Shown piece after piece: positions 39,720-48,227 of a stretch of DNA of 48,227 bases (positions are counted from its first letter, which is position 1; each line of letters begins with the position of its first letter). The notes beneath the pieces are model-generated. The model ran no database searches. It was given only the letters and a program-made list of their open reading frames with translations, and was not told where the DNA came from. Both the position numbers and the translations under genes were made by a program. The stretch is from a bacterium (GTDB taxonomy: Bacteria; SZUA-79; Acidulodesulfobacterales; Acidulodesulfobacteraceae): positions 1 to 48,227 of the forward strand of contig JAKAQK010000002.1 of assembly GCA_021822625.1 (NCBI GenBank), in the 5' to 3' direction.

Positions 39720-39761
39720 AATACCGGTTCCTTTTATTTTAATACCGGTTCCTTTTATTTT
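39720..39761. repeat. 2 x 21-bp perfect tandem repeat upstream of the coupling-protein gene
   Basis: aataccggttccttttatttt at 39720-39740 and 39741-39761; each contains the palindrome ACCGGT. Confidence 0.85.
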
Positions 39762-39791: not shown

Positions 39792-40706
39792 CTAACGGAA
39801 AAAATTATACAGGTACTTATTAATTATGCTTTTAACTGTTCTTATATCCGAATAATATGTCCACATAGACGACTCTATAGTCCTTATATCGTTTTCAGAA
39901 ACATATAATCTATTTTCAAGCAGCGCTTTCGCTTTTATAATTTTCACGGTATCGCGCCATCTACGGTCGGAAACTATTACCTGTCTGTTTTTTAATTCTT
40001 CTCTGATGCTGAAAATTAAATTATAAATAGGTTCTCCTATATTTATTTTCCGTGAAGCTGCGATTATTTTATTTAGTTCTTCCAATGTTAAATTTATATT
40101 ATTAGATGAATATTCTTCGCCGAGTTTCAGCAAATTTTTAAAATTATCTTCGCCTGCAATCGGCAGCACTTCTTTTCTTAATAAAAATCTGTCGTATAAA
40201 GGCAATAAATTAGAAGAAACAGTCCTGTCCGGCTTTTCATTAGAAGTTGCAAATAAACTGATAAGCGGTATATTTACAGGTTCCGGATTATACAATATTC
40301 TTTCGTTCATGATTGATAATAGTGAATTAAGCGTCGAAGTTTTGCCCTTAAAAAATTCGTCGATGAGCACAATTTCGCATTTATCTATACCATTGCCTTT
40401 ATTTAACGGATTATAAGACAATAAATCATTTATTTCCGTGTGCGGGGTCATTTGATAATCAAACAATTTCAGTCCTTTTACATGTTTTATTAAAGCTTTT
40501 AATATTGCAGTTTTGGCAAGCCCCGGTTCGCCAATGAGAATCATATGCTGTTTGGCAATAATTGAGATTAAAATAGCTTCTATAAGTTCATATCTTTCAA
40601 AAAAATATGCATCAAGATTTCCTATTATAGAAATTATTCTTTTCCTCACACCGTCAATATCTTCGTAAATATCACCGTCAATATCCATATTTAAAAATTC
40701 GTTCAT
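39792..40706 (-). CDS. MoxR/RavA-family AAA+ ATPase within T4SS cluster
   Basis: Walker A LIGEPGLAKTAILKALIKHV, EINDLLSYNPL, Walker B CEIVLIDEFFKGKTSTLNSLLSIMNERI, PLISLFATSNEKPD (RavA-like). Confidence 0.88.
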   Translation of the reverse strand: MNEFLNMDIDGDIYEDIDGVRKRIISIIGNLDAYFFERYELIEAILISIIAKQHMILIGEPGLAKTAILKALIKHVKGLKLFDYQMTPHTEINDLLSYNPLNKGNGIDKCEIVLIDEFFKGKTSTLNSLLSIMNERILYNPEPVNIPLISLFATSNEKPDRTVSSNLLPLYDRFLLRKEVLPIAGEDNFKNLLKLGEEYSSNNINLTLEELNKIIAASRKINIGEPIYNLIFSIREELKNRQVIVSDRRWRDTVKIIKAKALLENRLYVSENDIRTIESSMWTYYSDIRTVKSIINKYLYNFFR

Positions 40707-44225: not shown

Positions 44226-45383
44226 TTATAATGTAGTATCATCATAAAAATTTAAATTCGGATTATTGCTATTTTGCTCCGTAAGTGAAGCGCCTATATG
44301 CTCTTTTTTTATTTCCGAGGCGGATTTAGACAATTCAAGCTGCTTAAGCTGACTTTCAATGTATCCCATATTCTTCAAATTAGCCGCATTTTCCTCTGCT
44401 ATTAATGTCAGCACCGAACTTTGGTAAGTATAGTAATTGCTGCTGTTTCCCAGAGCGCCGCCGGCAATTTCGTTTTCAAATTCATCCCCTTCCAATTCGG
44501 CTTTGTGCGCTCTTGCAGATGATATACCGGCATTATAAATATCAGATGCGGCAACATTGCTTTCAAATCCGTTTACGTAATCCATGCAATTTTGAGCCGC
44601 CGTGCCATAATCAGCGCTGCCGGAAGCGCCTCCGCCGTTTGTTATTGTTAAATCCTGCCGGCAATTATAATTTATAGAATTATCCGGTACCGCAGCGGTT
44701 ACGCCGTTAGAATTTAATATTAATGAATTTGCAAGATTCTGCGCTTTTCCGGCTAAGTTTTCTTTGCTCTGTGATTCTCCGGAAACTATTTGCCGTATGC
44801 CGCCGTAAGACGTATTTTGTAATGAATCAAATGCGTTATCTTCTGAATTGATATTATCTTCTATTGAAGCGGCAGGTTCAGCATTAACCGAAACGTCATT
44901 TGTCGTTAATTCCTGGGGTATCTGGTTAAATGCGCTTTTAATCCGGCTGTTTAAACTATTTAAATTATTAATGGTATTTGGAACGGAATCGGCTATATGC
45001 GTTAATTTATCATAATTTATAATGATATTCTGCTCCGCTTCCTGCATTTCCGATTCCGCAGCTGTAAGAGATTCAAATGATTGAAGCGCCTGTCCTATTC
45101 CAATTCCGGGGGTTGCAACCGGCATACCTGCAGATTGAGCGGAAGACGCGGCATTTCCGACCGTAGTCATTACGCCTGAAGCGGCAGAAGCAACTGAATT
45201 AATCTGGCTTGTGATTAAACTCATATCGGGCAGCGGCAAACCTAACGCATAGGCTGTCTGGACACAGATATATCCCGACAAGACAATGACGGAAACCGAT
45301 AATGCAATCTTCTTAGAATTTGATTTTAAATTTTTAAAATTTCCGTTAAAAATTTTCTTATGATTTATAAAATCCGTAAACAT
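44226..45383 (-). CDS. VirB5/TrbJ-like exported protein (by position and architecture)
   Basis: Signal peptide KKIALSVSVIVLSGYICVQTAYA; Ala/Ser/Asn-rich helical; located between VirB4- and VirB6-like genes. Confidence 0.5.
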   Translation of the reverse strand: MFTDFINHKKIFNGNFKNLKSNSKKIALSVSVIVLSGYICVQTAYALGLPLPDMSLITSQINSVASAASGVMTTVGNAASSAQSAGMPVATPGIGIGQALQSFESLTAAESEMQEAEQNIIINYDKLTHIADSVPNTINNLNSLNSRIKSAFNQIPQELTTNDVSVNAEPAASIEDNINSEDNAFDSLQNTSYGGIRQIVSGESQSKENLAGKAQNLANSLILNSNGVTAAVPDNSINYNCRQDLTITNGGGASGSADYGTAAQNCMDYVNGFESNVAASDIYNAGISSARAHKAELEGDEFENEIAGGALGNSSNYYTYQSSVLTLIAEENAANLKNMGYIESQLKQLELSKSASEIKKEHIGASLTEQNSNNPNLNFYDDTTL

Positions 45384-45655
45384 AAACAGATACCTCCTAA
45401 TTTATATTAGTTGAGTTTTAGTTAGAATTTAACATTTAATCTAAAATTTTAAAATTTCCGTTAAAAATTTTCTTATGATTTATAAAATCCGTAAACATAA
45501 ACAGATACCTCCTAATTTATATTAGTTGAGTTTTAGTTAGAATTTAACATTTAATCTAAATTTTTAAAATTTCCGTTAAAAATTTTCTTATGATTTATAA
45601 ACTTTGCAAACATTACGTTAGTTAATAGATTAATAGATACCTGCAAATTTATTTT
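45331..45655. repeat. 115-bp tandem repeat array (2 full units plus third diverging unit) spanning the RBS and start of the VirB5-like gene
   Basis: ttccgttaaaaattttcttatgatttataaa recurs at 45341, 45456, 45571 (period 115). RBS tacctcct (AGGAGGTA on minus) in units 1 and 2; unit 3 diverges after 45600 but retains agatacct. Confidence 0.9.
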
Positions 45656-48216
45656 AAACTATACGGACCGTTTGGATATTCTGATGCTAAAATTTCTAGT
45701 TTTTCTCTTAAAGTTTTGTCCGGATATTGAGCCGATATTTTGTTTTCCAGCTCTTCATCTTCCGATGATTTACAATATAGCCAGTATTCAAAAGGGTCAG
45801 GCTTGTTCATTATAACCGCCGCATCTTTTCCAAACTTTAAAAAATATTCCGCATAATGTCCTTTAACCACTTTCAGATTTTTTACCGTTTCAATTTCTTT
45901 TTTACTTAATCCGCAAATCCTCAAATCATCCGGAGAAACTTCTGCGTCAAGTTGACAGAATATTTTAACGGTAGAATTTTCAATTATACTTTTACCGGCA
46001 TTTCCGGTCTTTAAAAGATCTGACGGTTCCTGAGTTATACTCCATACCAACGATCCCCATTTTGCCGAAGTTTTATATAAATGCATAATTAACTCCGCTA
46101 TTTTAGGATCATTCATAAATTCCCAGCATTCATCGTAAAAGAAAAATACCTTGGCATTTTTGTCATACATCTTTTTAAAAGATAAATTTTTTATTACGGC
46201 AAAGACTATTTTCTGTAAATCTTCATGTCCTTTTAGTTTTTGCAGGTCAAAAATAACTATTTTATTGTCAATGTTTAGACCGCCTTTTCTGTTTAGCAGG
46301 ATGCTATACGGAGAACTTATATCCGTCCATTGAAAAAGATTTTTACCCATTTCCATAGCCCTTCTTTTATCTTCTGCATCTCTTGCCTCATTATAATTAA
46401 ATAAAACATTATTAATATCGGAAATAATCGGCATGTCATTTTCATCTTTAATATAATCGTATGATGCCTGTATTGCCCTTGCTATAATAGTTTTATCATT
46501 TGGCGACAGGCTTTTGTCAGGTTCAGCCATAATACCTACTATACCTATTAAAAAAACCATAATATCCGGATTAAATATTTCCTCCCCGTTAATATGTTTA
46601 ATAACATGCTTTTTTGGAGGAAAAGGGTTTAAAGAGTATGTGCCGTCCATATCAATTTCAAAATAGTCTCCGTCAAAAAGCCTGCAAAATTTTTTGTATG
46701 TGCCTCCTATATCAACACCGATGATATGATAGTTATCGCCCGATAAAAAAAAGTTAGATAAAAATCCATTCAGCATAAACCCTTTGCCGCTTCTAGTTTT
46801 TCCAAAAATGACGCCATGTTTTGACGGCAATCTGTTATTATATAAATCTAAACTGACCGGCTCCGACCTGTTGTTTTTTAACGGTATGGAGCAATTTTCA
46901 GTTCCTCGAAATCCTTTATGCAGCGGAAAAAATGAAGCCGCCGCAGGGGAAAGCAGCGTTTTAAACCTTCTGTTAAAAAAAGACTGCCCGGGAAAAAATG
47001 ATAAAAATAGATTATGATGCTCCATATTGTCTATTATTCCTTCCATAAAATTAAAATCTTTAAAGGATTGCAGAATTTTCAAAGACATATAGTCCAATTC
47101 ACGTAAATTTTTAGATTTTATCCTAGCGCATAAAGATATATTGACGGCTTTTTTTTGGAGCTTTGATATTTCAACTAAAAAATCATCCATCTGGGACGTT
47201 ATATTTGTCCCTTTATGGTCAACATAGCCGCCGTTGACGGCATCCGTTAAACTTGCTTTAATATTTCTTTCAGACTGGATTTTATTAATTATTTTTTCCT
47301 GCTCGGGTATATTAAAAGAAACCTGAATGTCGTACGGAAAAAATTTTTTTATATCGTTAGATTCTAAATTAAGTATTTTTGCTATGCCGAATGAATCCGT
47401 CTGCGATGGAAGTTTATGCATATTAATAAATTTAAAGTAATAGCCGTCAACGTAAAAGTATTCTTTATTTATTTCTGCAGGCGAAAATATTAGAGAACTT
47501 CTGAACGTGGCTTCGTTTATTATATTGTTATAAAATGGAGCGTTAATATGCAGAGCTCTTTTAGGATTAAGTTCATTATAAAAATAATTAACCAATTCCT
47601 GATTGGACATTCTTTTTATTTTTATATTTAACCTTGCAGAGAAAAAACTTAAGTTATTTTCAATATTTTCCATTTTTTTCAACATATCTCCAAACTCCTT
47701 CTCTGCCCGGTCTCTTGAGTTTTTATTCAGCGCATCTTTTGGCTTAATCGTCATCAAATTGGCTGCAAATTGAGCTAATTTTGAAAATAAATTTATATTA
47801 TTGACGGTGCCCGGTCTGAAACCGGATATTGTGCAAAAAAGAAATATATCTATTTTTTTAATCAATTCTGTATGCAGGGATTTAATTTTTTTTTCTTTTA
47901 TAAATAAATATTTTTTCGGAGGATGCGAATTCTTTGTATAATTTGATATAAAATCTTCATCAGAATCTGATATTTTATATATCCATTGAAGCGAAATATC
48001 TTCGTTTAATAAATTTAATAAAATGTCGTTAATATAGGCGGTGTCGTTAATTATTTCATCGTTTGCAAGAAAATAATCAAATCCCTGTACGGCGAATCCT
48101 ACGGTCAACGAACCGTCTATGCCTACAATAGTATCTTTAAATATGCTTAATAGATTGATATAATTATTTAAAGAATCAGATTGATTTTGTTTTTTTAAAA
48201 TATTATTTATTAACAT
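45649..48216 (-). CDS. VirB4/TraC-family T4SS ATPase with variant Walker A (GKTRSGKG)
   Basis: HGVIFGKTRSGKGFMLNGFLSNFF, GVDIGGTYKKFCRLFDGDYFEIDMDGTYSLNPFP, Walker B KVFFFYDECWEFM, SLVWSITQEPSDLLKTGNAGKSIIENSTVKIFCQ. Confidence 0.87.
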   Translation of the reverse strand: MLINNILKKQNQSDSLNNYINLLSIFKDTIVGIDGSLTVGFAVQGFDYFLANDEIINDTAYINDILLNLLNEDISLQWIYKISDSDEDFISNYTKNSHPPKKYLFIKEKKIKSLHTELIKKIDIFLFCTISGFRPGTVNNINLFSKLAQFAANLMTIKPKDALNKNSRDRAEKEFGDMLKKMENIENNLSFFSARLNIKIKRMSNQELVNYFYNELNPKRALHINAPFYNNIINEATFRSSLIFSPAEINKEYFYVDGYYFKFINMHKLPSQTDSFGIAKILNLESNDIKKFFPYDIQVSFNIPEQEKIINKIQSERNIKASLTDAVNGGYVDHKGTNITSQMDDFLVEISKLQKKAVNISLCARIKSKNLRELDYMSLKILQSFKDFNFMEGIIDNMEHHNLFLSFFPGQSFFNRRFKTLLSPAAASFFPLHKGFRGTENCSIPLKNNRSEPVSLDLYNNRLPSKHGVIFGKTRSGKGFMLNGFLSNFFLSGDNYHIIGVDIGGTYKKFCRLFDGDYFEIDMDGTYSLNPFPPKKHVIKHINGEEIFNPDIMVFLIGIVGIMAEPDKSLSPNDKTIIARAIQASYDYIKDENDMPIISDINNVLFNYNEARDAEDKRRAMEMGKNLFQWTDISSPYSILLNRKGGLNIDNKIVIFDLQKLKGHEDLQKIVFAVIKNLSFKKMYDKNAKVFFFYDECWEFMNDPKIAELIMHLYKTSAKWGSLVWSITQEPSDLLKTGNAGKSIIENSTVKIFCQLDAEVSPDDLRICGLSKKEIETVKNLKVVKGHYAEYFLKFGKDAAVIMNKPDPFEYWLYCKSSEDEELENKISAQYPDKTLREKLEILASEYPNGPYSLK

Positions 48217-48227
48217 ATTTTATGCTT

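Follow-up and report, generated by a model that had tools for sequence, protein, structure and literature searches.

Tandem duplication of a gene head between virB4 and the following gene of a bacterial T4SS operon

The intergenic minisatellite or VNTR loci of bacteria, which are formed by slippage, consist of near-identical units of 40–120 bp arranged head to tail at gene junctions in a species-specific manner. The array described here, found in a 48,227-nt stretch of bacterial DNA (the window), resembles these loci in each of these respects but differs from them in that its unit is the head of a gene, complete with RBS and start codon, and in being known from one genome of its species. A second point of comparison is offered by the mycobacterial interspersed repetitive units (MIRUs), whose tandem units are about 100 bp long. 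MIRUs are described as repeat units that carry a small ORF and lie between the genes of an operon (Supply et al. 1997, as cited in PMC12548453); according to the account in the citing paper they are dispersed elements that appear to be mobile, with an ORF coupled to the following gene at a spacing of −4 nt (PMC12548453). The present units are likewise located within an operon and include a small ORF, but the array occupies one locus and its unit derives from the gene itself. Membership in the MIRUs was rejected because weak low-complexity matches were all that was found in place of a dispersed family, and a 52-nt gap stands where an overlap of about −4 nt would be expected. The locus has instead the attributes of a tandem gene-head duplication: adjacent, near-identical units taken from the head of the adjacent gene, which is present in single copy in relatives. 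Nothing was found in the literature on tandem duplication of an RBS and start codon with leader peptides.

The array and the gene that follows it

The array precedes a minus-strand gene for a 385-aa protein (44226..45383) with orthologues in 22 other genomes of the family. Directly upstream lies virB4 (45649..48216, minus strand), which encodes an 855-aa virB4/traC-type ATPase identified by the Pfam TraG P-loop and NCBIfam TraC/VirB4 families. The gene order is virB4, the 385-aa gene, a gene with a sub-threshold match to TrbL/VirB6 and, further on, TrbI/VirB10; the 385-aa gene, following virB4 and preceding the TrbL/VirB6-like gene, is therefore in the place expected of virB5. Its product has an N-terminal extension followed by a signal-like hydrophobic stretch, and its sequence is helical. 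No match of note was obtained in Pfam, NCBIfam, PHROG or PDB, a profile search of solved structures returned chance matches only, and a structure model built from six sequences had a pLDDT of 33. The VirB5-like label of the preliminary description is thus favored by gene order and by the helical, signal-bearing sequence, and received no confirmation from the searches of families and solved structures. The operon looks chromosomal, since homologues of the housekeeping genes priA and scpA lie on the same contig; this, together with the absence of relatives in plasmid and viral collections, led us to reject a plasmid or viral origin. Further along the operon, a MoxR-type AAA ATPase gene (39792-40706 of the window) is found between the TrbI/VirB10 gene and a VirD4-like gene, and the spacer separating it from the latter contains a perfect 21-bp tandem pair (39720-39761).

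Analysis of the whole window with TRF yielded a single array with a period of at least 40 bp: a 115-bp tandem array of 2.4 copies on the minus strand (45327..45601; score 543, 98% matches), in which a shift of 115 aligns runs of 40 and 114 nt exactly. The 115-bp repeat is thus confirmed as first described, and the 0 such arrays in shuffled sequence argue against a chance origin. Numbering the units from virB4, so that unit 1 adjoins virB4 and unit 3 abuts the 385-aa gene, units 2 and 3 share 114 nt without a difference, and units 1 and 2 share 155 nt with a single mismatch. Repeat identity ends at 45601, which is codon 5 of the upstream-most copy (unit 1). From there to the virB4 stop codon (45649) extends the diverged 5' edge of unit 1 (45602..45648, minus strand), which was defined from the sequence and its alignment with the genus relatives G001, G003, G004 and G005 and is only partially related to the other units. 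The span originally assigned to the array, 45331-45655, hence comprises the repeat itself and this edge, which falls outside the repeat identity.

The start codon is present three times and a working RBS twice, as AGGAGG occurs in units 2 and 3 only; of the RBS and start codon that had been reported as multiplied, the start codon is indeed tripled, and the RBS is found in two of the three units. In unit 1 the virB4 stop codon directly abuts the lost RBS, which reads GCAGG (45644-45640) and lies 26 nt before the ATG, with a ATCTATTA doublet between the two. The AGGAGG of unit 2 (45508..45513, minus strand) is positioned 9 nt before the ATG of the second mini-ORF, the normal spacing noted at the outset. 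That of unit 3 (45393..45398, minus strand) is the RBS of the 385-aa gene, and its GGAGG is conserved in relatives.

The source genome is a fragmented draft of 237 contigs, and short reads resolve repeats of such length poorly, which raises the question of whether the array is an artefact of assembly or a chimeric product of strain variants. We consider this very improbable: a duplicated k-mer overlap would not account for the single mismatch, the diverged edge and the missing RBS that distinguish the copies; the periods of arrays in this genome span 41-121 bp; and similar arrays occur in G003, a 5-contig assembly.

Origin of the unit

Each unit is derived from a gene head made up of about 36 nt of upstream sequence, the RBS, the ATG and about 24 codons, the join falling slightly past codon 24. 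In a DNA search against G001 the unit matched in two contiguous blocks, one of 71 nt from the ATG at 90% and one of 37 nt before it at 92%, indicating that it was formed by tandem copying of the ancestral gene head together with the tail upstream of it. The comparison with sibling genomes that the preliminary description had called for revealed a single head in all four genus relatives in which the head can be aligned (G001, G003, G004 and G005). GGAGG lies near the ATG in the alignment of these four, so that the loss of the RBS in unit 1 is a derived state. The two more distant members of the genus, G002 and G006, have unrelated N-terminal extensions in the protein, showing that the copied part belongs to a variable region; both the length and the sequence of the duplicated N-terminal part vary between relatives. 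A search of the genome for dispersed copies of the unit returned only weak low-complexity matches, and a dispersed repeat family was rejected on this basis.

These data have led us to favor, with some confidence, a short tandem duplication of the head of the gene after virB4, with mini-ORFs as its by-products. Slippage duplication had been named earlier as an alternative to a regulatory leader, and is well supported by the single-copy relatives, the 114-nt identity, the make-up of the unit as ancestral head plus 36-nt spacer, and the many similar arrays described below. According to the model that we propose, slippage or short-homology recombination would have produced a tandem duplicate of the stretch that begins about 36 nt ahead of the RBS and ends near codon 24, and one of the two duplicates would then have been copied a second time. 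The copy adjoining virB4 would have lost its RBS, and the copy abutting the gene would still drive it; the mini-ORFs would be remnants of the copied gene start, each open as far as the first stop codon that the AT-rich DNA provides. The array would be tolerated because of its location in a spacer, where it disrupts neither the gene nor the gene's own RBS, and any effect on expression is presumably small. The near identity of units 2 and 3 would indicate either that the second step was recent or that the array has been homogenised. The perfect RBS of unit 2 fits a recent copy and a functional copy equally well.

The junctions hold a further record of this history. In unit 1 the junction between the virB4 stop codon and the RBS is like that of G003, and units 2 and 3, for their part, have a spacer tail like that of G001 and G004. 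A tree of concatenated operon genes joins this genome to G003 and leaves G004 outside, with 98% support; a tree of virB4 only, which includes G001, gives an unsure grouping. Judged by these junctions, the duplication may have come first, with later loss of spacer before unit 1, or two alleles may have recombined. In its full form the latter proposal holds that a resident short junction, as in G003, acquired a second head from the long-spacer allele of a relative, and that slippage doubled the incoming unit. Such a hybrid would explain why unit 1 shares its junction with the tree sister of this genome, why the spacer tail of G001 and G004 appears in units 2 and 3, and why the differences of unit 1 are limited to its 5' edge. 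It is nevertheless an improbable history, as duplication gives the same pattern if the spacer in front of unit 1 was later deleted (and the extra unit lost in G003), independent deletions also explain it, and the tree that includes G001 is unsure. We regard the array as genuine and recent, and as a tandem gene-head duplication of a fairly ordinary kind.

The mini-ORFs and the leader proposal

Mini-ORF 1, MFAKFINHKKIFNGNFKNLD and stop, extends from the ATG at 45613 to the TAA at 45551 and has no RBS; mini-ORF 2, MFTDFINHKKIFNGNFKILD and stop, extends from the ATG at 45498 to the TAA at 45436. Both are 20 aa long and on the minus strand, and with the gene ATG at 45383 their positions, obtained from the ORFs and their translation, are exactly those first given. 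Head duplications simulated in the window produced a closed mini-ORF in 84% of cases, with a median length of 26 aa and the middle 80% between 18 and 35 aa. Mini-ORFs of 20 aa thus need no special explanation and are probably by-products of head duplication. To judge from its perfect RBS, mini-ORF 2 may well be translated, to some extent at the expense of the cell or of the gene.

The preliminary description had suggested that the array could be a tunable or phase-variable translation leader. In such a scheme mini-ORF 2 would divert ribosomes from the gene or feed re-initiation, and gain or loss of units would set the output of the secretion operon. It draws on the perfect AGGAGG 9 nt upstream of mini-ORF 2, on the 114-nt identical direct repeats, which are good substrates for recombination, and on recurrent head duplications at the adjoining virB4. 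The geometry is less favorable. The stop codon of each mini-ORF is separated from the next ATG by 52 nt, far from the overlaps or very short distances to which termination-reinitiation coupling is tied in the work of Huber et al. (2023), as cited in PMC12548453, and mini-ORF 1 has no RBS. Folding of the array RNA was no better than that of shuffled sequences (z = −0.47), and no promoter or terminator pattern was detected on the minus strand of the array. The array is missing from the other members of the genus, head duplications affect the probable housekeeping genes rimM and ruvB as well, and the repeated codons fall in an N-terminal extension that is itself variable. Taken together, these observations leave the tunable leader unsupported, and we hold it to be unlikely.

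Three more specific functions were rejected on the same data: duplication of a promoter, because the array has no promoter-like site on the minus strand; an RNA switch, because its folding is no better than that of shuffles; and an attenuator-type leader peptide, because no terminator and no supported alternative RNA structure follows the leader ORF. The broader implication of the locus is that leader mini-ORFs can arise in one step by duplication of a gene head; such ORFs should accordingly not be read as regulatory without a test.

Head duplication at virB4 and across the genomes

Recurrent duplication at virB4 stands as a counterpoint to the reading of the array as an ordinary duplication. 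A search of virB4 heads in seven genomes of the genus, in which G000 is the present genome, found a single head in G001, G002, G004 and G006 and more than one in G000, G003 and G005. The duplication in G003 has a 75-bp period and gives rise to MLINNILKKQNKSDSLLN and stop (L092:11930-12074). That in G005 is an exact 126-bp repeat with a 33-aa ORF (L009:2200-2451) and, being exact, may be a product of the assembly. In the present genome the contig that bears the window stops at the virB4 start (48216-48227), and the end of contig C121 (L196) carries a virB4 head of 33 codons followed by a second virB4 start at 103 bp. The ORF of this duplicated head, MLINNILKKQNQSDSLNNYINLLSIFKDTIVGIKYVNK and stop, terminates just past the second ATG, and inspection by eye places the gene normally found upstream of virB4 in the same end sequence. 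The junction differs between the two contig ends (GGCATA against AAGCATA), hinting at a third copy or at strain variants. These duplications share with the present array their operon and a truncated N-terminal mini-ORF before the gene, but they affect another gene, one without a clear RBS, and have other breakpoints (75, 126 and 103 bp).

The differences among these breakpoints argue for separate events. With about 0.2-0.4% of gene starts duplicated in the background, the finding of more than one virB4 head in 3 of 7 species has a probability of ~4e-7 to 2e-6, of 5e-5 at a five-fold rate that allows for arrays missed at contig ends, and of 1e-4 to 2.5e-3 for 2 of 7 with G005 left out, these values coming from a post hoc test with a sampled background rate. 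Since the frequency at virB4 exceeds the genome-wide rate, the operon may be under local pressure or contain a hotspot; the recurrence is in keeping with frequent mutation of the AT-rich head as well as with selection in favor of lower expression. A stronger proposal is that the T4SS operon of this genus repeatedly gains copies of the heads of virB4 and the next gene as selected, reversible decoy starts that lower secretion. We think it doubtful; if true, the virB4 duplications and the present array would be a case of convergent evolution of a mini-ORF rheostat. The virB4 recurrence is the notable part of the locus and raises its interest somewhat, as it provides a natural series across sibling species, with no extra head in some and one or more in others, that could show whether the extra starts lower the output of a costly secretion operon or are just the sign of a mutation hotspot.

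The genomic background was established by a census of arrays with a period of at least 40 bp and at least 85% matches, with dinucleotide-shuffled copies as control and rates drawn from genome samples. The present genome contains 32 arrays in 661 kb (4.8 per 100 kb; 0 in shuffled copies) and G003 contains 9 in 400 kb (2.3-2.5 per 100 kb across samples; 0 in shuffled copies), and a sample of G005 gave 6.3 per 100 kb. For T4SS regions from the family's other genera, which are less AT-rich, the rate is 0.8 per 100 kb. Most arrays are located at or between gene ends. Among 1358 ORFs of three genomes, 6 heads and 10 tails are duplicated, and starts are thus not favored over ends. Two of the duplicated heads in G005 belong to genes that we take, from their sequence, to be rimM (L162:3620, 105-bp period) and ruvB (L163:4067, 40-bp period), indicating that secretion genes are not the sole targets. 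Elsewhere in the present genome, the region in which two convergent genes end (L114:5244-5479, on G000:C202) contains a perfect 118-bp tandem duplication that covers both 3' ends.
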